From Burkholderiales bacterium (GTDB lineage: Bacteria > Pseudomonadota > Gammaproteobacteria > Burkholderiales > JAEUOS01), in the NCBI GenBank assembly GCA_947473125.1, contig CANJDH010000035.1:1-42923 (forward strand): DNA of 42,923 nt, read 5' to 3'. The position numbers and the translations under genes were made by a program. Shown here piece after piece: positions 9,102-25,546 of this stretch. Numbering within the stretch: position 1 is the stretch's first letter; the number at the start of each line of letters is the position of its first letter. A model generated the notes under the pieces. That model saw nothing but the letters and a program-made list of their open reading frames with translations, had not been told where the DNA came from and searched no databases.

Positions 9102-11603
9102 CATACCATTCGTCTTGCGCTCAAAATGCTGGCCCGCGATGCGCGCGCCGGCGAGTTGCGCATCCTCCTTGCCGCGCTGGTGATCGCGGTGGCCAGTGTG
9201 ACCAGCGTCGGCTTTTTTGCCGACCGCATCGGCCGTGCCCTCAGCCAGGAATCGCACCAGCTGATCGGCGCCGACTTCGTGGTCAGTTCCGACCGGCCGA
9301 TTCCCGAAGACCTTTCTGATGCAGCCCTGGCGCGCGGGCTGCGCGTGGCGCGCGCCATCAACTTTCCGAGCATGTCGTCGTTTGGCGACAAGACCCATCT
9401 GGCCGGGTTCAAGGCGGTATCGGCAGGCTATCCGCTGCGCGGCAGCCTGCGTGTCGCACCGGATCGCAACCAGGCCGACGCCGCGACCCGCGACATTCCC
9501 GCGCCCGGCACCGTATGGCTCGACGAACAGCTGGCCACCAGCCTGATGGTGAAACCCGGCGACCGCATCGGCGTGGGCGAGTCGGAACTCCGCTTCGAAC
9601 GCGTCGTCACCCTCGAGCCGGATCGTGGCGCGAGTTTTTTCTCGATCGCGCCGCGCCTGATGTTCAACCAGGCCGACCTCGCCGCGACAAAACTGATCCA
9701 GCCCGGCAGCCGCGTCACCTATCGCCTGCTGGTGGCCGGTTCCGAGGTTGCGGTAGCCGACTACACGACCTGGGTCAAAAAGGTGCTGGCACGCGGCCAG
9801 TGGATCGAGGAAATCAGCAACGCGCGCCCCGAAGTGCGCGCCTCGGTGGACCGGGCCCAGCAGTTCCTCGGCCTGGTCGCGCTGCTGGCGGTGATCCTCG
9901 CGGCGGTGTCGATTGCGCTGGCGAGCCGGCGCTTCATGCAGCGCCACCTCGACGGCTGCGCGGTGCTGCGTTCGATGGGCGCGAGCCAGCGCACCCTGTT
10001 CACGATGTATGCGGTCGAATTCCTGCTGCTTGGCCTGATCGGCTCGGCGCTCGGCACGTTGCTGGGCTATGTGGTGCATGCCCTGATTGCGCAAATCCTC
10101 GGCTACCTGGTGGCGACCCAATTGCCTGCCGCAGGCGCGATGCCGGCGCTGCAGGGTTTTGCCACCGGCACGCTGCTGCTGCTCGGCTTCGCGCTGCCGC
10201 CGCTTATGCAGCTGGCCGGCGTGCCGCCGATCCGCGTGATCCGCCGCGAAACCGGCGATCCCAAGCCGCTGACGGTGCTCACCTACGCGCTCGGTGCGGG
10301 CGTGCTGGCGGGCCTGATCCTGTGGCAGGCGCGCGATGTCAAGCTCGGCCTGGTGGCGTCCGCCGGCTTTGCCGCTGCCATGGGCGCGAGTGCGCTGGTG
10401 ACCTGGTGGGTATTGCGTGGGCTGGCGCGGCTGCGCACCCGCTCCAGCGGCGCCGGCGGTTTTTCCTGGCGTTACGGGGTGGCGGCGATGCGCCGGCGCG
10501 GGCTCGCCACGGTGACGCAGGTGGTCGCGCTGAGCCTGGGGCTGGCCGCCTTGCTGCTGCTGACGATCACGCGCGGCGACCTGATGGCGCAATGGGAAAA
10601 GAGCGTACCGCCGGACGCGCCGAACCGCTTTGTGATCAACGTGCAGCCGGACCAGCGCGCCCTGTTCGCGCAACAGTTCGCCGACGCCGGCCTGGCGAAA
10701 CCCGACACCTACCCGATGGTGCGCGGCCGCCTGATCGCCGTCAACGACGTGCCGACCGGGCCGGAGCTGTTTCGCGAAGACCGCGCCAAGCGCCTGGTGG
10801 ATCGCGAGTTCAACCTCTCGTACATGGCCGAACTGCCGTCGCACAACCGGGTGATTTCAGGGGGCTGGTTCACGCCGCGCCAGCTTCAAGACGGCGCGCT
10901 CTCGGTGGAAGACGGCATCGCCAAGACCCTGAACCTGAAAATTGGCGATGTGCTGACCTACGAAGTGGCCGGCCAGAAGTTCAGCGCACCAGTCACCAAC
11001 CTGCGCAAGCTCGACTGGGATTCGATGCGCGTCAATTTTTTCGTGATCGTCACGCCCAGGCTGCTCGAGCCGTTTCCGACCACCTTCATCAGCGCGTTCC
11101 ACCTGCCCAAAAACCAGCCCGGGTTTATCGACAAGCTGGTGGCGCGCATGCCCAACCTCACGGTAGTGGACGTCGAAGCCATCCTGCGCCAGTTGCGCGG
11201 CGTGATCGGCCAGGTCGCCGAGGCGGTGCAGTTCATTTTCCTGTTCACGCTGGCGGCCGGCATCACGGTGCTGTATGCGGCGCTCACCGCCAGCCAGGAC
11301 GAGCGTACCCGCGAGGCCGGCATCATGCGTGCGCTCGGCGCATCGGGTGCGCAACTGAAAAGCGCGCAGTGGGCCGAGTTCATCCTGACCGGTGCGCTCG
11401 CTGGTCTGTTCGCGGCCTTGATCGCCTGGGGCATCGGCTACTCGGTGGGCCGCTTTGTGCTGAACCTGCCGATGGCCTTCAACCCCTGGCTGTGGGTCGC
11501 CGGCATTGGCAGCGGCGCGTCGTGTGCGTTTGCCGGCGGCGCGCTGGCGCTGGCAGGCACCTTGAAGCGCCCGCCGATCGTCACCCTGCGGGAGGCGGTG
11601 TAA
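9099..11603 (+). CDS. YbbP-like ABC transporter permease (FtsX/MacB-type)
   Basis: An 834-residue inner-membrane permease of the COG3127 type (E. coli YbbP), whose members work with an ATPase (YbbA) and are thought to move or extract lipophilic substrates by the MacB/Lol mechanism. It has an N-terminal membrane helix (about 22-40), a large periplasmic domain, an FtsX core with helices near 255-280, 305-335 and 350-375, a second pair near 395-440, another periplasmic domain, and a C-terminal FtsX core (about 700-830) with the typical DERTREAGIMRALGAS loop. No ATPase gene or TesA-like esterase gene is beside it. Its stop overlaps the globin start (TAATG). It lacks a Shine-Dalgarno site. Confidence 0.88.
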   Translation: MHTIRLALKMLARDARAGELRILLAALVIAVASVTSVGFFADRIGRALSQESHQLIGADFVVSSDRPIPEDLSDAALARGLRVARAINFPSMSSFGDKTHLAGFKAVSAGYPLRGSLRVAPDRNQADAATRDIPAPGTVWLDEQLATSLMVKPGDRIGVGESELRFERVVTLEPDRGASFFSIAPRLMFNQADLAATKLIQPGSRVTYRLLVAGSEVAVADYTTWVKKVLARGQWIEEISNARPEVRASVDRAQQFLGLVALLAVILAAVSIALASRRFMQRHLDGCAVLRSMGASQRTLFTMYAVEFLLLGLIGSALGTLLGYVVHALIAQILGYLVATQLPAAGAMPALQGFATGTLLLLGFALPPLMQLAGVPPIRVIRRETGDPKPLTVLTYALGAGVLAGLILWQARDVKLGLVASAGFAAAMGASALVTWWVLRGLARLRTRSSGAGGFSWRYGVAAMRRRGLATVTQVVALSLGLAALLLLTITRGDLMAQWEKSVPPDAPNRFVINVQPDQRALFAQQFADAGLAKPDTYPMVRGRLIAVNDVPTGPELFREDRAKRLVDREFNLSYMAELPSHNRVISGGWFTPRQLQDGALSVEDGIAKTLNLKIGDVLTYEVAGQKFSAPVTNLRKLDWDSMRVNFFVIVTPRLLEPFPTTFISAFHLPKNQPGFIDKLVARMPNLTVVDVEAILRQLRGVIGQVAEAVQFIFLFTLAAGITVLYAALTASQDERTREAGIMRALGASGAQLKSAQWAEFILTGALAGLFAALIAWGIGYSVGRFVLNLPMAFNPWLWVAGIGSGASCAFAGGALALAGTLKRPPIVTLREAV

Positions 11604-14922: not shown

Positions 14923-15756
14923 ATGGCCGCACAACCCGAAATCAACAACATGGCGCTGTTCTGTGACTTCGAAAACGTCGCGCTCGGCGTGCGCGACGCC
15001 AAGTACGCCAAGTTCGACATCGGCAAGGTGCTCGAACGCCTGCTGCTCAAGGGCAGCATCGTGGTCAAGAAAGCCTATTGCGACTGGGACCGCTACAAGG
15101 AATTCAAGGGGGCGATGCACGAGGCCTCGTTCGAATTGATCGAGATTCCCCATGTGCGCATGTCGGGCAAGAACTCGGCCGACATCCGCATGGTGGTCGA
15201 TGCGCTGGACCTCTGTTACACCAAGGCGCACGTCGATACCTTTGTCATCATCAGCGGTGATTCGGACTTTTCGCCGCTGGTCTCGAAGCTGCGCGAGAAC
15301 AACAAGACCGTGATCGGCGTGGGCGTGAAGAACTCCACCTCCGACCTCTTGATCGCCAATTGCGACGAATTCATTTTCTACGACGACCTGGTGCGCGAGC
15401 AGGAAGCCAAGAAGACGCGTGCGGTGCGCAAAGCGCCGGCCAAGGCGGCGGCAGGTGCCGAGAAGACGCCGCAGCCGAAGCGCGAAAAGAGCGGCGACGA
15501 CAAGCGCCAGGAGGCCCTTGACCTGATTGTCGAGACGGTCGAAGCGCTGGCGGCGGAACGCGGCGCCGACGACAAGATCTGGGGTTCGATGGTCAAGCAG
15601 ACCCTGAAGCGGCGCAAACCGGGTTTCAACGAAAGCTATTACGGCTACCGCGCCTTCAGCGATTTGCTTGAAGACGCGCAGAAGGACCAGCTGATCACGC
15701 TGGAGCTCGACGAAAAGTCCGGCGGCTACCTGATCCGGCTGCGCCCGCAGGCATGA
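14923..15756 (+). CDS. NYN-domain ribonuclease-like protein with C-terminal OST-HTH/LOTUS-type domain
   Basis: A 277-residue protein resembling LabA/DUF88 NYN proteins, PIN-fold nucleases that act on RNA. The N-terminal domain (about 8-165) shows MALFCDFENVALG with the first catalytic Asp, NSADIRMVVDALDL and FVIISGDSDFSPLVSKLRE with the acidic cluster, and GVGVKNSTSDLLIANCDEFIFYDDL. A Lys/Ala/Pro-rich linker (about 172-200) leads to a winged-helix OST-HTH-like domain (about 200-277), a module that in other proteins binds RNA, including G-quadruplex RNA. All acidic residues of the active centre appear intact. Its stop overlaps the next gene (ATGA). The target RNA is unknown. Confidence 0.88.
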   Translation: MAAQPEINNMALFCDFENVALGVRDAKYAKFDIGKVLERLLLKGSIVVKKAYCDWDRYKEFKGAMHEASFELIEIPHVRMSGKNSADIRMVVDALDLCYTKAHVDTFVIISGDSDFSPLVSKLRENNKTVIGVGVKNSTSDLLIANCDEFIFYDDLVREQEAKKTRAVRKAPAKAAAGAEKTPQPKREKSGDDKRQEALDLIVETVEALAAERGADDKIWGSMVKQTLKRRKPGFNESYYGYRAFSDLLEDAQKDQLITLELDEKSGGYLIRLRPQA

Positions 15757-16127
15757 GAGCGGTCGACATTGTTCGCGCCTACCTGGCAGCGATGGAGGGG
15801 CGCGATCTCGCGGCCGCCGAGGCAATGCTGGCACCGGGATTCACGATGGAGTTTCCCGGCCCGGTGCGGTTCACCACGCTGGCCGAATTGATCGCCTGGG
15901 CCAAGCCGCGCTATCGCTTCGTGAAAAAGGCCTACGACCGCTTCGACGAGGCGCCCGCCGCAGAGGGCGCCGTGGTGTATTGCTACGGCACGCTCGCCGG
16001 CGAGTGGCCGGACGGGGCGCCGTTCGCCGGCATCCGCTTCATCGATCGCTTCACCGTGGCGCAGGGCAGGTTGATCGACCAGACTGTCTGGAACGATCTG
16101 GCAGAGTTCCGCCTCAAGGCTCGCTAG
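15753..16127 (+). CDS. NTF2-like / SnoaL-fold protein
   Basis: A 124-residue single-domain protein with the pattern of the nuclear transport factor 2/SnoaL superfamily: an N-terminal helix pair (IVRAYLAAMEGRDLAAAEAMLAPGF), TMEFPGP, and a C-terminal sheet with FIDRFTVAQGRLIDQTVWNDL. These domains serve as small enzymes (isomerases, hydrolases) or binding proteins, and the sequence does not say which. The ATG overlaps the stop of the NYN gene by four bases, so the two are translated together. It is followed by the URC promoter. Confidence 0.75.
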   Translation: MRAVDIVRAYLAAMEGRDLAAAEAMLAPGFTMEFPGPVRFTTLAELIAWAKPRYRFVKKAYDRFDEAPAAEGAVVYCYGTLAGEWPDGAPFAGIRFIDRFTVAQGRLIDQTVWNDLAEFRLKAR

Positions 16128-16139
16128 CGCGAACATTTC

Positions 16140-16168
16140 TTGACTATTTGGTCAGGATTCACAATACT
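16140..16168 (+). promoter_or_regulatory. URC operon promoter with overlapping RutR-type operator
   Basis: TTGACT (16140-16145), 17 bp and AATACT (16163-16168) make a good sigma-70 promoter. The 16-mer TTGACTATTTGGTCAG at 16140-16155 matches the E. coli RutR box TTGACCA-N2-TGGTCAA at 12 of its 14 defined positions and covers the -35 and part of the spacer, an ideal place for repression. The RutR-like regulator encoded at 19273 in the same operon is the obvious ligand-controlled partner. Confidence 0.75.
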
Positions 16169-16197: not shown

Positions 16198-17442
16198 ATG
16201 GTCGCCCCCAGAAAACGCCACGTTGTCCTGACTTCGCACCCGCGCCTGGCCAGCAAGGCGCCGCAGATCCATTGGGGTGCGCCGACTGCGCGTGAGCGCG
16301 GCCCGGTCAATGCGGGGCAGGACCCGGCCGCGCGCAATGCCATCGGCGCCCACGCCGGCAGCTACGCGCTGTACCGTGCGCTGGCGATCGCCGCAGGCAA
16401 GCTCTCGGCGGAACACGTTGCCGACCTGACCGACACCACGCCGGCCGAGAAAATCGGGCCGCACCCGCAATGGGCAGACCCGAAGCGCATCGTCTCGTTC
16501 GACCCCTGGGGCCATATGGTGGCGGACGCGTTTGCCGACGAGCTCGCCGCCGGCATGGACCTGCGCCCGTCGATTGCGATCACCAAGGCGCACGTGACGA
16601 TTCCCGAAATCCAGACGGCCATGGCGGCGGGGCGCCTCAAGCCGGATGCGCGCATCCTGCAGGCTTCGGGCGCGGCACGCGTCACCAAGATCGCGATCGA
16701 GCCGGTCTGGTATCTGCCCGGCGTGGCCGAGCGCTTCGCGATCGCCGAGACCGACTTGCGCCGCGCCTTGTTTGAACACACCGGCGGCATGTTTCCCGAG
16801 CTGGTGACGCGGCCCGACCTCAAAGTGTTTTTGCCGCCGATCGGCGGCATCACCTGTTACGTGTTCGGTGATGTCGAAGCGCTGTCCGACCCGACGCGCA
16901 AGCTGGCGTGCCGGGTGCACGACGAGTGCAACGGCTCCGACGTGTTCGGCTCCGACATCTGTACCTGCCGACCTTACCTTGTGCATGGCGTCGAGGTGTG
17001 CATCGAAACCGCGCAGGCCGGCGGCGTCGGCCTGGTGGTCTACAACCGCAAGGAGGGGCGTGCGCTGGGCGAGGTGACCAAGTTCCTGGTCTACAACGCG
17101 CGCAAGCGCCAGCTTGGCGGCGATCGTGCCGAGAAGTATTTCGAGCGTACCGAGTGCGTCGCCGGCGTGCAGGACATGCGCTTCCAGGAGATGATGCCCG
17201 ACGTGCTGCACTGGCTCGGGGTGACGCGGATCGACCGCTTCGTGTCGATGAGCGACATGAAATTCGACCCGCTGGTCAAGAGCGGCATCGAGGTGGTCGA
17301 GCGCGTCGAGATTCCACCCGACCTGATCCCGCCCGAGGCACAGGTGGAAATGGACGCCAAGCGCGCCGCCGGTTACTTCACGCGCTACCAGCCGGCCGAC
17401 GACGAGATCGCGACTCCGAAAGGACGCCGGCTTGACGAATGA
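16198..17442 (+). CDS. URC1-type GTP cyclohydrolase II-like protein (uracil catabolism)
   Basis: A 414-residue protein with a GTP cyclohydrolase II domain and an N-terminal extension of about 200 residues, the form found in the URC pyrimidine degradation pathway (Urc1p in Lachancea kluyveri), where it is needed to open a uracil-derived nucleotide. The zinc ligands are intact: C244, C255 and C257 in HDECNGSDVFGSDICTC. The YNRKEGRALGEVTKFLVYNARKR region replaces the usual GxGR/LxxK active-site text, arguing against plain riboflavin biosynthesis. The ATG has CGGAG 7 bases upstream. The URC4, upp and regulator genes follow in an unbroken rightward order, which strongly supports the URC assignment. 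Confidence 0.9.
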   Translation: MVAPRKRHVVLTSHPRLASKAPQIHWGAPTARERGPVNAGQDPAARNAIGAHAGSYALYRALAIAAGKLSAEHVADLTDTTPAEKIGPHPQWADPKRIVSFDPWGHMVADAFADELAAGMDLRPSIAITKAHVTIPEIQTAMAAGRLKPDARILQASGAARVTKIAIEPVWYLPGVAERFAIAETDLRRALFEHTGGMFPELVTRPDLKVFLPPIGGITCYVFGDVEALSDPTRKLACRVHDECNGSDVFGSDICTCRPYLVHGVEVCIETAQAGGVGLVVYNRKEGRALGEVTKFLVYNARKRQLGGDRAEKYFERTECVAGVQDMRFQEMMPDVLHWLGVTRIDRFVSMSDMKFDPLVKSGIEVVERVEIPPDLIPPEAQVEMDAKRAAGYFTRYQPADDEIATPKGRRLDE

Positions 17443-18655
17443 GGCGCAACAGACAGCGGCGCGCTGGTTGCTGACGGCCGGCGCGGTGCGAACGCGCGCC
17501 CAACAACTGCTGGCGCGCGCGGAGCGCGACGATTCGGCGCATTTTGTCTACCGACCCGAAAAGCTGGACGCCACGGTGCAGGTGGTGGTCGACACGATTC
17601 GCCAAAACTATCCGCGCCTCGACATCCCGTTCCACAGCCGCTGGCGTCATTTTTCAGCGGGCGACGTCGATCGCTGGGCCGCATTGCCGGCGTCGCGCGA
17701 CCCGGCCGAGCGCGCGCGCCAGCGCATCGACCTTGCCATCGTCAGCGTGCTGCTCGACGCCGGTGCGGGCCCGACCTGGCGCTACCGTGCGCAAGATGGC
17801 AACACCTATTCCCGTTCCGAAGGCCTGGGCGTCGCCAGTATCGAGATGTTCGCGCGCGGCGCGTTTTCGGCCGATGCGGGCCAGCCCCTGCGGTGCGACG
17901 CTACGGCGCTCGCCGTCATCGACGCCGGCATGCTGGCGCACGGCATGCAGGTATCGGACACCAATCAGTTGGCCGGGCTGGAGGGGCGAGCAGCCTTGCT
18001 GCGCAGCCTCGGCGCGCAGATGGGGCGCGATGCGGCGCACTTCGGCACGCCCGGCCGGGTGGGGCATTTGTTCGACTGTCTTCAGGCGGGTGCAGAGCAC
18101 AGCACCGTTCCGGCGACGCGCATTCTTGAATTGGTGCTGGCTGCGCTGGGCCCGATCTGGTCGGGCCGGCACAGCCTTGGCGGTTACGCCCTTGGCGACA
18201 CCTGGCGGCATGCGGCTTTCCCCGAAAGCGACATCGGTGCGGGCATGGTGCCGCTGCACAAGCTCTCGCAATGGCTCACGTATTCGCTGATCGAGCCGCT
18301 CGAAGAGGGCGGCCTCTCGGTCACCGACCTCGACGGCCTCACCGGCCTCGCCGAATACCGCAATGGCGGGCTGATGCTCGACGCCGGCCTGCTCGCGTTG
18401 CGCGAACCGGCACTGGCGCAGCGGACGCTCGACGTGTCGAGCGAGGTGGTGGTGGAGTGGCGTTCACTCACGGTGGCCTTGCTCGATCGCGTTGCCGTCG
18501 GAGTACGCGACGCCTTGCATGGGGATGCGAAACAACTGCCGCTGGCGCGCGTGCTTGAAGGCGGCACCTGGGCGGCCGGGCGGCGCCTCGCCCTTGCGCG
18601 CAGCGCTGATGGCGCACCGCCGCTGCACATCGTTAGCGACGGCACGGTTTTCTAG
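17432..18655 (+). CDS. URC4/Urg3 family (DUF1688) uracil catabolism protein
   Basis: A 407-residue protein of the DUF1688 family, the URC4 component of the uracil catabolic pathway first described in yeasts; its reaction is not firmly established. Recognisable text includes [73 protein letters not shown] and [16 protein letters not shown]. No membrane segment is seen. The start is TTG at 17432, overlapping the URC1 stop by 11 bases with AAAGGA upstream; no ATG lies near. It sits between URC1 and upp and is surely co-transcribed. Confidence 0.9.
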
Positions 18656-18671
18656 AAAAGGAACACACAGC

Positions 18672-19304
18672 ATGGAACCCAATCCGGTCATCATCACCCA
18701 CCCGCTGGTGCAGCACAAGCTCACGCTGATGCGCCGCAAGCAGACCTCGACCGGCGAATTTCGCCTGTTGTTGCGCGAGCTCTCGCCGTTGATGCTCTAC
18801 GAGGCGACGCGCGACCTGCCGATGGCGATGCAGCGCATCAGCACGCCGATGGAGGAGATCGATGCGCCGCTGCTGTCCGGCAAGAAGCTGTGCTTCGTGC
18901 CGGTGTTGCGCGCGGGCCTGGGCATGCTTGACGGCATGCTCGAGCTGGTGCCGGCGGCACGCGTCGGCCATGTGGGGTTGTATCGCGACCCGGTCACGCT
19001 TGATGCGATCGAGTATTACATCAAGGTGCCCGAAGACATCGGCGAGCGCCTCGTGATTGTGCTCGACCCGATGCTCGCGACCGGGCATTCAGCCAGCGCC
19101 GCACTGGACCGCCTCAAGGCGCAGGGCGCGCGTACGATCCGCTTCATCAGCCTGGTGGCGGCACCGCGCGGCATCGCATTGCTGCGCGAAGAACACCCCG
19201 ACGTGATCATGTACACCGCGGCGGTGGACCGTGAACTCAACGAGCACGCCTACATCCTGCCCGGGCTGGGTGATGCCGGAGACCGGCTGTTTGGCACCAA
19301 GTAA
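18672..19304 (+). CDS. upp: Uracil phosphoribosyltransferase
   Basis: A 210-residue enzyme joining uracil and PRPP to make UMP. In the URC pathway this is the entry step, since UMP-level intermediates are degraded. Visible are the N-terminal [28 protein letters not shown], the PRPP loop [17 protein letters not shown] and the C-terminal uracil site [17 protein letters not shown]. The ATG follows AAGGA by about 9 bases, and the gene begins 16 bases after URC4. The regulator gene overlaps its end by 32 bases. It may also serve normal pyrimidine salvage. Confidence 0.96.
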
Positions 19305-19995
19305 AAAGGCAGCGGGGAAAGCCGCGAAAGCCGTGGTGACGCCGGCGCCGCGCATGCGGCGCGTGCGCGACCGCAACCAGGGTCTGCTGTTGCGCGCCGC
19401 CGAGCGCGTGTTTGCGCGTGCCGGTTTTGCCGGGGCCACCGTCGCCGAGATCGCGCGCGAAGCCGGCGTGCCCAAGGCCAACCTGCATTACTACTATCCG
19501 GAAAAGCGTGATCTGTATCGCGCCGTGCTCGACAACATCCTGGCGCTGTGGCTGGGCGAAACCGATGCGTTTACGCCAGAGGCCGAGCCGCTCGCCGCGC
19601 TGGAGGCCTACGTTCGCGCCAAGATGCGCTTTTCACGTGATTACCCAGATGCGTCACGGGTGTTTGCCAATGAACTCCTGCATGGCGCGCCGGAGATCGG
19701 CGCCTATTTGCGCGGCGCGTTGCGCAAACTGGTAGCGTCCAAGGCTGCGGTGATCGATGCATGGATCAGTGAGGGGCGCATCGCGCCGCTCGATCCGGTC
19801 CATCTGTTTTTTTCGATCTGGGCGGTGACCCAGACCTATGCCGATTTCGATACCCAGGTGGCGGCGGTGCTGGGGGTACGCCAAGTGTCGGCGCGGCAGC
19901 ACGCCGAGGCCACCGAAGCGGCGGTCGCGTTGTTCCTGCGCGCCGCGCGCCCTGATGCCGTCGCGAGCCGGACAACATCAGGCAAGTTGGCCTGA
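19273..19995 (+). CDS. RutR-like TetR family transcriptional regulator
   Basis: A 240-residue TetR protein with a basic N-terminal tail, a helix-turn-helix (about 40-90: [29 protein letters not shown]) very close in pattern to that of RutR, and a RutR-type C-terminal ligand domain ([28 protein letters not shown]). RutR senses uracil and controls pyrimidine degradation in E. coli. Here the gene is last in the URC operon, whose promoter carries a RutR-type box, so autoregulation by uracil or a similar pyrimidine is likely. The ATG at 19273 lies inside upp; a second Met at 19354 is possible, and neither has a good ribosome site. Confidence 0.86.
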
Positions 19996-20016: not shown

Positions 20017-20835
20017 TCAGGCCGCGACGCGCCGCATCCTGCCGATCAGGACCACTGCCGCGAGCAGCACGATGGTGCACGCGCCGATCTGCAAAGTGTG
20101 GGCGTCATACCAGTGGTCCAGGTGTTCATTGGCCAGGCGCGCCAGCCCGAATAGCGCAATCCCGAGGCTGAGCACGCCGATCGTCAGGGTCAGGCGTCGC
20201 GACCAGATGGTGTTGGCGCCGGCGCTGTTGCTCAGGCGATACACCCACAGGCCGTTGGCGGCATCTACCAGCAGCATGCCCAGCGTGAAAATCAGGCCCA
20301 GCAGCAGCGCCACACCCCAGGCGAATTCGCCCGAGGCGGCCAGCGAGAACACCGCGGCCTGGCTCATCGTGTCCATCGAGATTGCGAACGCCGCGCCGAT
20401 CAGGGAAATGAGCAGCGGGTGGGAAACGCGCGTCGCGCGTGCGAACAGGCCGCCGCGCAAGCCGCGCGGGGTAGTGGCCTGGTGCGCCGGGGTGCGCGCC
20501 AGCGTCATCAGGTTTAGGATGCCGATCGCAAATAGAAAGGCCATCGACACCAGATTGCCTGCTGTTTCCACCCATGCCGGAATCTGCTGGGCGCGCGCCG
20601 CTACGGCGAGCAGGGCGGCGACCAGGGTCACCATTGCGCCGTGACCCAGAGAAAAAAACAGGCCGCACCAGCGCGCGCGCTCCGGCGCCGTGCCGGCGTT
20701 GAAGCGCGTCAGGTTGTCCACCACCGCAAGATGATCCGGGTCCATGCCGTGGCGCAGGCCGAGCAGGAAAGTGAGCCCCGCAAGAGGCAACAGCGGGGGC
20801 AGCAGCTGGGAAGACAGCGGGCCGGCGTCGATCAT
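20017..20835 (-). CDS. NiCoT family nickel/cobalt transporter
   Basis: A 272-residue inner-membrane permease for Ni2+ or Co2+. The NiCoT signature is LGLRHGMDPDHLAVVDN (H and D residues at about 28-35), with a second motif FSLGHGAMV and a third around SLIGAAFAISMDTMSQ; seven to eight membrane segments are apparent. It starts four bases after the ureG stop and is the last gene of the urease operon, so supply of nickel for the urease active site is the clear inferred role. The ATG at 20835 is chosen because the longer frame runs back into ureG. Confidence 0.92.
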   Translation of the reverse strand: MIDAGPLSSQLLPPLLPLAGLTFLLGLRHGMDPDHLAVVDNLTRFNAGTAPERARWCGLFFSLGHGAMVTLVAALLAVAARAQQIPAWVETAGNLVSMAFLFAIGILNLMTLARTPAHQATTPRGLRGGLFARATRVSHPLLISLIGAAFAISMDTMSQAAVFSLAASGEFAWGVALLLGLIFTLGMLLVDAANGLWVYRLSNSAGANTIWSRRLTLTIGVLSLGIALFGLARLANEHLDHWYDAHTLQIGACTIVLLAAVVLIGRMRRVAA

Positions 20836-20839
20836 CGCG

Positions 20840-21523
20840 TCAGGGCTTGTGCTTTCTCGCTTCGTCGAGCAGGCCTTCCTTGCGGATGAAGGCAATCACC
20901 TCGGCGACGCCGCTGCCGGTGCGCAGGTTGGTGAAGATGAAGGGGCGCTCGCCGCGCTGCTTTTTGGCGTCGCTCGCCATGATGTCAAGATTGGCCCCCA
21001 CATGCGGCGCCAGGTCGGTCTTGTTGATGATCAGCAGGTCGGAGCGCGTGATGCCGGGGCCGCCCTTGCGCGGAATCTTCTCGCCGCCGGCGACGTCGAT
21101 CACGTAGAGCGTCAGGTCCGAGAGCTCCGGGCTGAAAGTGGCCGCGAGGTTGTCGCCGCCGGATTCGAGCAGGATCAAATCGAGGTCGGGAAAATCCGCC
21201 TGCATGCGCGCGATCGCCTCGAGGTTGATCGAGGCATCTTCGCGAATCGCGGTGTGCGGGCAGCCGCCGGTTTCGACCCCCATGATGCGCTCGGGCGGCA
21301 GGGCGCCGGCGCGCAGCAGGATTTCCATGTCTTCCTTGGTATAGATGTCGTTGGTGATGACACCCATGTCGTAGTGGTCGCGCATGCCCTTGCAGAGCAT
21401 TTCGCACAGGGCGGTCTTGCCGGAGCCGACCGGGCCGCCAATACCGACGCGCAGCGGGTTGTGCTGCGGCGTTGCTCCGGGTACGGCGGCGCGCAATGGG
21501 GAAACTGCGGGTTGGGTGCTCAT
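20840..21523 (-). CDS. ureG: Urease accessory GTPase UreG
   Basis: A 227-residue SIMIBI-class GTPase that carries nickel and drives its insertion into apo-urease with UreF and UreD. The P-loop GPVGSGKT is at 30-37, followed by [12 protein letters not shown], the nickel-binding CPH in [16 protein letters not shown], the switch region [17 protein letters not shown] and the guanine motif INKTDLAP. The N-terminal 20 or so residues are an extra low-complexity tail. AGGAAA precedes the ATG, 8 bases from the ureF stop. Confidence 0.97.
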
Positions 21524-21531
21524 GTATTTTC

Positions 21532-22218
21532 CTAGGATCGAAAGATGCGGCTGTGTTGGGTTTCGTGGCGCATCGAAAGAAATGATAGCCCGGGGGTCCA
21601 GTTGGAAATGTCGTCGTCGTCCAACGCGATGGCGGTAGCGGCAGCGTCGAGGATTTTTTCTTCCATGGCGAACAGCATGCGCTGCCCCGACACCTGGCCA
21701 AGCGGCACTGCCTTGAGGGCGGCCAATACCTGGTTCTCGGTCCAGGCGAACAGGTAGGCGTGCAGCGACGCCTCAAGCGGCGTGTCGAGCATCACGCAAG
21801 CAGCGGCCATGGCGCCGGGAAACGCAAGAGATGCCTCGGAAACCGTTGGTGGAAGCGCTTCTGCGAGGATGTGCCGAGGGAACAGGTCGCGCAGCAGGCG
21901 CGCCAGGGAATAGCCCATCTGCACCGTCTCGGCGCGAAATTCGGCGCTGTCGCGCGAGGCCAGGAAAAATTCGTTCCAGTGTTGCATGGCGTCGCGATCT
22001 GCACTTTGCCAGGCGCGATACAAGCGGCAGAAAATTGGTGCTTCGAGGCGCGCGACCGAAAACTGCAGGGTGTCGCCGATCCACGCCTGCGCGTCCACCT
22101 CGTTCCTGATGATGCCGGCATCAATCGCAGACTCCAGTCCCTGCGAATAGCTGTAGGCGCCCACCGGCAGCGTCGGGCTCGCCAGATGCAGCAGGCGTAA
22201 CAGCGCGAGTGGTGTCAT
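21532..22218 (-). CDS. ureF: Urease accessory protein UreF
   Basis: A 228-residue helical accessory protein that binds UreD and UreG and gates GTP hydrolysis during nickel insertion. Typical text is [24 protein letters not shown] near the N-terminus, [44 protein letters not shown], and the C-terminal [11 protein letters not shown]. The ATG at 22218 overlaps the ureE stop (ATGA); the longer open frame would begin inside ureE and is rejected. Confidence 0.96.
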
Positions 22219-22826
22219 TTGTCCTGCGTGCCTTTCCACTTGGCGGGCCATTTGTCAGGATCAGGACGATGGATTTTTGGCTCATGCACCGGCATGCGGC
22301 TGCCGGGATGCACATCGTGCGCATGGCCGTGACTGTGGTCATGATCGTGCCCACCGACGTGGGAATGCCCGTAGGCACCGGTCTCGGGCTCGAATGGCGC
22401 CAGCACTTCTGCAGAGTGCGCACCCAGCCCGGCGAGCATGTCGGCCAGCACGTGGTCGGCGCGGATGCGCAGCGCATAGTGGCCGTCCGGCTTGCGGCCG
22501 ATGATCTGTACTGGCGTGTGGCGGTTGCCGAGGTGGTAGGCGCAGCGCGCGAATTGGTCGACGTCGTGGCATTCGACCTCGAGCACGGCTTCGGGTGCGG
22601 CGACGATGCGCACCAGGCGCGCATGGCCCCGCTCGTCGATGCCCAACAGGCAATCGCCGCCGCGCAACACCGTACCGCGCGCCAGGAACAGGGCCGCCTC
22701 CTGGCCGGCGCAGGGTCCGCCGGTGAGGGTGGCGCGCAGCCGGCTCTTTTCGCGCAATTCGTAGGGCAGGGCGAGTTCGGCATCCACCTGTGCCACCGGC
22801 GGCACGCGATCTTTCAATGTCAGCAT
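22215..22826 (-). CDS. ureE: Urease accessory nickel metallochaperone UreE
   Basis: A 203-residue nickel-binding chaperone that donates Ni2+ during urease maturation. The peptide-binding N-terminal domain (about 1-75) and the metal-binding domain with ECHDVDQFARCAYHLGNRHTPVQI are followed by a long His/Asp-rich tail (about 150-185) holding HSHVGGHDHDHSHGHAHD, which would bind several extra nickel ions. It lies two bases after the ureC stop and overlaps ureF. Confidence 0.96.
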   Translation of the reverse strand: MLTLKDRVPPVAQVDAELALPYELREKSRLRATLTGGPCAGQEAALFLARGTVLRGGDCLLGIDERGHARLVRIVAAPEAVLEVECHDVDQFARCAYHLGNRHTPVQIIGRKPDGHYALRIRADHVLADMLAGLGAHSAEVLAPFEPETGAYGHSHVGGHDHDHSHGHAHDVHPGSRMPVHEPKIHRPDPDKWPAKWKGTQDK

Positions 22827-22828
22827 GG

Positions 22829-24534
<1,706 letters not shown>

Positions 24535-24538
<4 letters not shown>

Positions 24539-24867
24539 TTGGCTGCTCCCCCAATGTTCTGTTTGAGCTTGCCCATCACCTTGCCGTTGAAGCCGTAGAC
24601 CTTGCGCTCACCCGAGAGCACCACCAGTTCCACCGTGCGCTCCTGGCCGGGCTCGAAGCGCACCGCAGTGCCGGCTGCAATGTTGAGGCGCATGCCATAG
24701 GCGGCATCCCGGTCGAACCGCAGGGCAGCGTTGGTCTCGAAAAAATGGAAATGCGAGCCGACCTGGATCGGCCGGTCGCCGCTGTTGGCGATTTTCAGTC
24801 TGGCGGTCGCGCGGCCGACGTTGAGTTCGATGTCGCCTGGCTGGATGTCGAATTGTCCGGGGATCAT
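24535..24867 (-). CDS. ureB: Urease beta subunit
   Basis: A 110-residue structural subunit of urease, as a separate chain in the usual bacterial three-gene arrangement. It begins [19 protein letters not shown] and carries [18 protein letters not shown] and the C-terminal [16 protein letters not shown]. It starts nine bases after the ureA stop and overlaps ureC by four bases, so the three structural subunits are made in equal amounts. Confidence 0.97.
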
Positions 24868-24876
24868 GGGCGCGCC

Positions 24877-25179
24877 TCAGGGGATCGGATGGTGCACGGT
24901 GACCAGTTTGGTGCCGTCCGGAAAGGTGGCCTCGACCTGGATATCCGGGATCATTTCGGGCACGCCCTCCATGACGTCGGCGCGCGCGAGAATGTTGGTG
25001 CCTTCGCTCATCAGGGAGGCGACGCTTTTGCCGTCGCGCGCACCCTCCATGATTGCCGCGCTGATCAAGGCGACGCTCTCCGGGTAGTTCAGTTTCAGGC
25101 CGCGCGCCTTGCGGCGCTCGGCAAGCAGGGCTGCCGTAAAAATCAGCAGCTTGTCTCTTTCGCGTGGGGTCAGTTCCAT
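24877..25179 (-). CDS. ureA: Urease gamma subunit
   Basis: The 100-residue small subunit of urease. It begins [23 protein letters not shown], continues with [24 protein letters not shown], and ends with [19 protein letters not shown]. Length is exactly that of the family, which fixes the start at 25179; the longer open frame to 25350 is not needed. No clear Shine-Dalgarno precedes the ATG. It is the first gene of the leftward urease operon ureABCEFG-NiCoT, reading away from urtA. Confidence 0.97.
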
Positions 25180-25225
25180 GGTGGCGTGGGCAGTGGCTGG
25201 GGCGGGCAGAGCATAACTGATAGTC

Positions 25226-25295
25226 AAGCGTGATGGCACATACATGACAGCACAAGCGTGTTGGCAAAAGCGTGATGGCAAAAGCGGATGCAAGA
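25226..25295. repeat. Degenerate 14 bp tandem repeat, five units
   Basis: Units start at 25226, 25240, 25254, 25268 and 25282. Units 1, 3 and 4 share AAGCGTG(A/T)TGGCA with at most one difference; unit 2 matches at 8 of 14 positions and unit 5 is shortened (AAGCGGATGCA). A further AAGCGTG follows at 25295-25301. The array lies 50-115 bases upstream of ureA. Confidence 0.7.
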
Positions 25296-25304
25296 AGCGT
25301 GCTC
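25289..25304 (-). promoter_or_regulatory. Weak sigma-54 promoter candidate for ureA
   Basis: On the minus strand the sequence GAGCACGCTTCTTGCA matches the -12 element (TTGCA) and CACG perfectly, but the -24 GG is AG. It lies 110 bases before the ureA ATG. The altered -24 makes it a weaker call than the urtA promoter. Confidence 0.35.
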
Positions 25305-25546
25305 TGCGCACAAAGACGGAGCGTGTGCCGGTTTGTTGCTGCGGCCGCATGTGCCGAACCGCGCAAGACGACGCGCTGCCATCCGGACGCGCGGCCCGAC
25401 CGGAAGGTCTTGCGCACCGTTACGGAGCGTTATTGCGCGAGTCGGGTTCATCCAGGTGCGCAAATTGGTGCGCGACGCTCACTTGCAGGGCGTGAACCCC
25501 GCGCGCCATGCCCCCCAGACCGTTGGTACGCAAGGAGCTTGGGCAA

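Follow-up and report, generated by a model that had tools for sequence, protein, structure and literature searches.

In the stretch of DNA analysed here (the window, 42,923 nucleotides from a Burkholderiales bacterium), the imperfect palindrome at positions 16140–16155 is very probably (a probability of roughly 0.86) the operator of the RutR-family repressor whose gene ends the URC1-URC4-upp-rutR operon, from which the repressor would be released by uracil. This reading is a well-supported comparative prediction that places a known kind of switch on the URC pathway. It was obtained by comparing sequences, from which we infer binding, repression, the role of uracil as inducer and the use of a sigma-70 promoter.

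The URC operon and its candidate operator

URC1, URC4 and a uracil phosphoribosyltransferase, whose joint presence was taken to mark a URC pathway operon, are encoded together in the window (Table 1). The roles of the pathway genes come from yeast, where the counterpart of the operon gives urea, according to the available text of PMC7530994.

Table 1. Coordinates of the operon genes, candidate operator and putative promoter elements in the window.
Feature	Position	Strand	Basis
URC1, GTP cyclohydrolase II-like	16198..17442	+	NF005536, 745.9 bits (cut-off 403); GTP_CH_N
URC4 (DUF1688), start codon uncertain	17432..18655	+	PF07958, 467.8 bits
upp / URC6-like uracil phosphoribosyltransferase, ATG by eye	18672..19304	+	TIGR01091, 265.5 bits (cut-off 208)
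RutR-family TetR regulator, start overlaps upp, exact start uncertain	19273..19995	+	TetR_C_3, TetR_N
RutR-family operator (candidate), TTGACTATTTGGTCAG, imperfect palindrome	16140..16155	.	sequence, conservation, unbiased scan
Putative -35 hexamer TTGACT, inside operator	16140..16145	+	sigma-70 scan, layout as in L017 and L016
Putative -10 hexamer AATACT	16163..16168	+	sigma-70 scan, layout as in L017 and L016

The operon is adjoined by a gene for a NicO-type nickel transporter (20017–20895) and by urease genes for UreG, UreE and the alpha, beta and gamma subunits (20840–25350, minus strand). A frame at the place expected for UreF (21532–22251) matched no NCBIfam model at 1e-15. Among 91 URC1 loci, for which short stretches around each were searched, a urease alpha match near URC1 was found only in the window. 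In the window's genome, a search conducted without a positive control genome gave no match to E. coli RutA, and a PreA-like protein was found (30% identity, 142.7 bits), a weaker match than PreA gives at most Pyd loci.

The candidate operator begins 58 bp 5' of the URC1 ATG. TTGACTATTTGGTCAG agrees with TTGACCANNTGGTCAA at 12 of the 14 defined positions of the 16-bp palindrome TTGACCA-N2-TGGTCAA, and recomputation reproduced the sequence, coordinates and degree of match that had been given in the initial annotation. The consensus letters are those of that annotation, and the available text of PMC10891134 gives only a 16-bp palindrome. By itself, such a match proves little because near matches are common: the 14-base core occurs with at most one mismatch at 21 places genome-wide, against 15 for a reversed control pattern. 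The window holds six sites with at most three mismatches against 0.8 expected, and a second two-mismatch site lies at 17264, within URC1. A chance palindrome, with the regulator controlling something else, would suit the genome-wide count, yet it is highly improbable, since the site is raised above chance by the comparative results obtained from linked loci, from an unbiased scan and from information content.

Co-occurrence of the box with a linked rutR gene

The loci compared were drawn from a URC1 scan using one genome per species; the best 80 of at least 588 candidates, 10 further loci and the window made up the set of 91. A RutR-family gene lies in the stretch examined at 35 of the 91 loci, the window included (linked loci), the other 56 being unlinked. 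When a box was called wherever the core occurred with two or fewer mismatches no farther than 200 bp from the URC1 start, it was present at 35/35 linked loci and at 2/56 unlinked loci (Fisher p = 3.6e-23, a value that ignores relatedness), and it occupies a similar place across the linked set. The core has no mismatch in 23 linked loci, one in nine and two in three, and random 212-bp windows drawn from linked loci contained a box in 16 of 700 cases. The check that the initial annotation had proposed, a search for the same box in related URC promoters, was thereby run and came out in its favour. The two boxed unlinked loci are the remaining point on the side of chance. Unlinked loci on short contigs (e.g., L043, L064, L088 and L092) may miss rutR or part of the promoter. 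At L016 and L089 the box stands 5' of URC1, yet a genome search at E 1e-25 gave no RutR-family gene for either; the gene may be missing, since both are metagenome-assembled genomes, and the L016 box could be chance.

The linked loci are phylogenetically clustered, many belonging to Cupriavidus or Zoogloea. The URC1 tree implies at least seven changes of rutR and five of the box. Three well-supported independent pairs differ in rutR, and the box follows in about 1.9 of them, goes the opposite way in 0 and shows no difference in 1.1; on three pairs a sign test cannot reach significance. The direction of the association between rutR and the box is consistent, and the independent evolutionary events are few.

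Because the box count had used the known consensus, a consensus-free palindrome scan was added. It covered 3,840 patterns, each composed of a 4-mer, a spacer of 0–14 bases and the reverse complement, over 12 lineages hand-picked from the 35 linked loci. The pattern TGAC-N6-GTCA ranked first, occurring in 12/12 chosen lineages vs 2/56 unlinked loci, and the next three patterns were pieces of the same box. Over the 12 lineages, the box columns carry 1.51 bits of information and the flanks 0.22 and 0.30; the best-match procedure applied to unlinked loci gave a mean of 0.45 and a maximum of 0.60 in 200 draws, a control from which L016, L089 and those loci whose upstream sequence was short had been omitted. 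Furthermore, a search of 10 genomes for exact YTGACCANNTGGTCAR found it in eight, in seven of them at the URC promoter. The three other exact places all lie within long reading frames, and in the two genomes lacking an exact copy (L017 and L023) the URC box carries a single mismatch. The recurrence of the box at every linked locus, its recovery by the unbiased scan and the location of the exact sites elsewhere within reading frames together argue against a chance palindrome.

As a point against the operator reading, the window's box is one of three among 37 that depart in their own way in the core or the outermost arm, and no other box has T at position 6. A regulon extending further through this genome was rejected, the only perfect core (C41:10998) lying within a long reading frame; this examination covered the 15 of 21 places that had a locus, among which the one-mismatch places were considered for covering frames.

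The regulator and its relatives

The window regulator matches TetR_C_3 at 169.2 bits and TetR_N at 51.2 bits, both above the Pfam cut-offs, and is thus RutR-like in the wide sense of a TetR_N domain joined to a YcdC-like C-terminal TetR_C_3 domain. Against TIGR03613 (RutR) it reaches 207 bits, under the curated cut-off of 368 that defines RutR strictly, a narrow cut-off passed by only one of 398 sampled genomes of the phylum. It is the top RutR-family match of its genome (207.6 bits; next 63.4), and its closest solved structures in the PDB are those of E. coli RutR (E 7e-48 to 1e-45). The five uracil contacts described for E. coli RutR in the available text of PMC10891134 (W77, Y97, W167, Q171 and Q179) are kept as WYWQQ in the window and are retained in 35/35 URC-linked regulators. 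They are also kept in 9/10 Rut-linked and 26/28 Pyd-linked regulators and in 21/33 members without a nearby pathway gene. The contacts fit uracil sensing and are not special to the URC clade, because most other family members keep them.

It is unlikely that the linked regulator binds the box in response to an inducer other than uracil, such as thymine or a URC intermediate, or that it serves as an activator instead of a repressor. The family is wide, and 12 of the 33 members without a nearby pathway gene depart from the E. coli contacts, which leaves room for another ligand; the retention of all five contacts in every linked member nonetheless favours uracil. In addition, the box lies over the predicted start site or over the -35 and spacer, a blocking position that speaks against activation. 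With a uracil-released repressor as the preferred reading, the earlier proposal that a RutR-family regulator controls URC through this box is very probably correct, given the distribution of the box and the conserved contacts.

The family was further resolved in a quick maximum-likelihood tree of 108 proteins with a midpoint root. All 35 URC-linked regulators fall in a 36-row branch together with one Pyd-linked regulator, that of L206 (SH-aLRT 96), and one pair of linked loci has identical regulators. The 10 Rut-linked regulators, E. coli RutR included, lie in a separate branch (SH-aLRT 99), with which the window regulator does not group. Because the two branches are separate in the tree, the URC-linked regulator is placed as a sister of RutR and not as RutR proper.

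The distribution of the box beyond URC points the same way. A box whose core departs by no more than one base was seen next to rutR, preT or hyuA at 6 of 25 Pyd-linked loci (L187, L188, L194, L196, L214 and L219), as in L187, where TTGACTATTTGGTCAA stands 5' of preT. At rut loci, a box with at most two mismatches was found before a named pathway gene in 0 of the 9 sampled, and E. coli's own RutR site has three mismatches to the box. This listing of Rut and Pyd sites omitted those with one or two mismatches inside predicted reading frames, as well as loci without a nearby pathway gene. The box is accordingly predicted to serve as operator across the family, with its best conservation at URC loci and some Pyd loci, and on present sequences it is common to URC and some Pyd (reductive) loci more clearly than to Rut. 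The suggestion that a regulator had been re-used between the Rut and URC routes therefore did not hold, in view of the separate tree branches, the rut loci sampled and the divergent E. coli site. At L206, a box near 11587 immediately precedes an ABC-transporter operon whose last gene is rutR and which encodes an NMT1/THI5-like binding protein; a sigma-54-like AGGCACGAAACTCGCT, read by eye, adjoins this box, and the transporter is possibly a pyrimidine importer.

Compared with E. coli RutR and rutABCDEFG, the window system is alike in its TetR-family fold, as judged by sequence, its five uracil contacts and a related palindrome. E. coli rut joins sigma-54, NtrC and RutR (available text of PMC10891134 and PMC8743547), and the window's relatives resemble E. 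coli rutA in pairing a RutR-type site with a sigma-54-like promoter. The two systems differ in their pathway genes, in the place of the regulator gene, which is last in the operon in the window and divergent in E. coli, and in the family branch of the regulator. Moreover, the E. coli RutR site is located some 80 bp 5' of the sigma-54 element, whereas the box of URC promoters is at the predicted start site. Pyd-linked regulators accompany the reductive uracil pathway and occupy other tree branches, except for L206 in the URC branch. RutR regulons have been predicted across Proteobacteria in 68 genomes of 13 taxa (PMC5343134). The present case is like these, as far as the available text describes them, in that RutR regulates pyrimidine catabolism and its motif changes by taxon; that available text names no URC genes, and the supplementary tables or RegPrecise may list URC targets. 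In the literature searched, which left subscription papers mostly outside its scope, none was found that joins RutR with URC1, URC4 or DUF1688.

Promoter architecture and proposed control

In the window, TTGACT-17-AATACT (16140–16168) matches a sigma-70-like promoter at 9 of 12 positions and is the sole sigma-70-like site in the 1 kb scanned, where shuffles gave a mean of 0.1 (sd 0.2). Its -35 hexamer coincides with the operator's left half, so that the match of this hexamer does not count as separate evidence for a promoter. With approximate score matrices, the arrangement TTGACC/T-17-xAT(A/G)CT, in which an operator half supplies the -35, is seen in L017 and L016 as well as in the window, and L017 has TTGACC-17-GATACT, with the spacing of the window. 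The initial annotation had described the box as overlapping a good sigma-70 promoter; the overlap is indeed present, but the arrangement is unusual, 33 of 35 linked loci being sigma-54-like instead. A leader hairpin overlapping the promoter was set aside by eye, as its 5' arm would precede the predicted start.

It is possible, though doubtful, that the sigma-70 promoter is not real and that URC is read through a SnoaL-like gene (15753–16127), with the box acting as a roadblock. That upstream gene stops 12 bp short of the box, the operator itself supplies the -35, and in most relatives the box is at or just past the predicted start, all of which suit such an arrangement; the recurrence of the same spacing in L017 and the single sigma-70-like site in 1 kb argue for a promoter overlapped by the operator, the reading preferred here.

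Sigma-54-like elements, defined as TGGCACG-N4-TTGCW with at most two mismatches and GG and GC fixed, occur in 33/35 linked promoters, 7/56 unlinked promoters and 33/1,820 random windows. Among linked loci, only the window and L017 lack one; in the other 33, the box lies at about -1 to +9 relative to the predicted sigma-54 start. NtrC-like sites with at most two mismatches were found at 18/35 linked loci, 2/56 unlinked loci and 38/910 random stretches, and the best such site of the window has four mismatches. By these promoter sequences, control by uracil seems to have survived in the window and control by sigma-54 and nitrogen to have been lost. The missing sigma-54 promoter is not explained by an absent rpoN, since that gene is present in the window's genome. 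In six loci of Aquabacterium/Leptothrix type without a linked rutR (L025, L027, L028, L047, L050 and L057), which form one branch, a sigma-54 element with one mismatch was observed; such operons are predicted to have nitrogen control without the uracil switch.

In the proposed mechanism, the palindrome would be occupied, when uracil is lacking, by a repressor dimer covering the -35 and spacer and keeping RNA polymerase off; in relatives the dimer would block the start site. Uracil entering the ligand pocket would release the repressor and allow synthesis of the URC enzymes and of more repressor, giving autoregulation. In most relatives, sigma-54 (with NtrC-like sites in about half) and the RutR-family repressor would together require both a shortage of nitrogen and the presence of uracil. 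The lineage of the window would have lost its sigma-54 element, and the TTGAC half of the operator would have become a sigma-70 -35; therefore, uracil alone would switch the pathway, with the urease cluster adjoining.

Of the routes of uracil breakdown, URC is the least understood, and its control in bacteria is apparently undescribed in the literature searched. The present analysis offers concrete operator, regulator and inducer candidates for it, as well as a candidate uracil-responsive promoter part, and points to one sensor family serving three chemically different routes. At about even odds, the uracil operator outlives its promoter and acts, together with its regulator, as a movable uracil switch that serves several pathways and classes of promoter. 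How an operator survives a change of promoter class can be tested directly by comparing, for example, the window or L017 with Cupriavidus.
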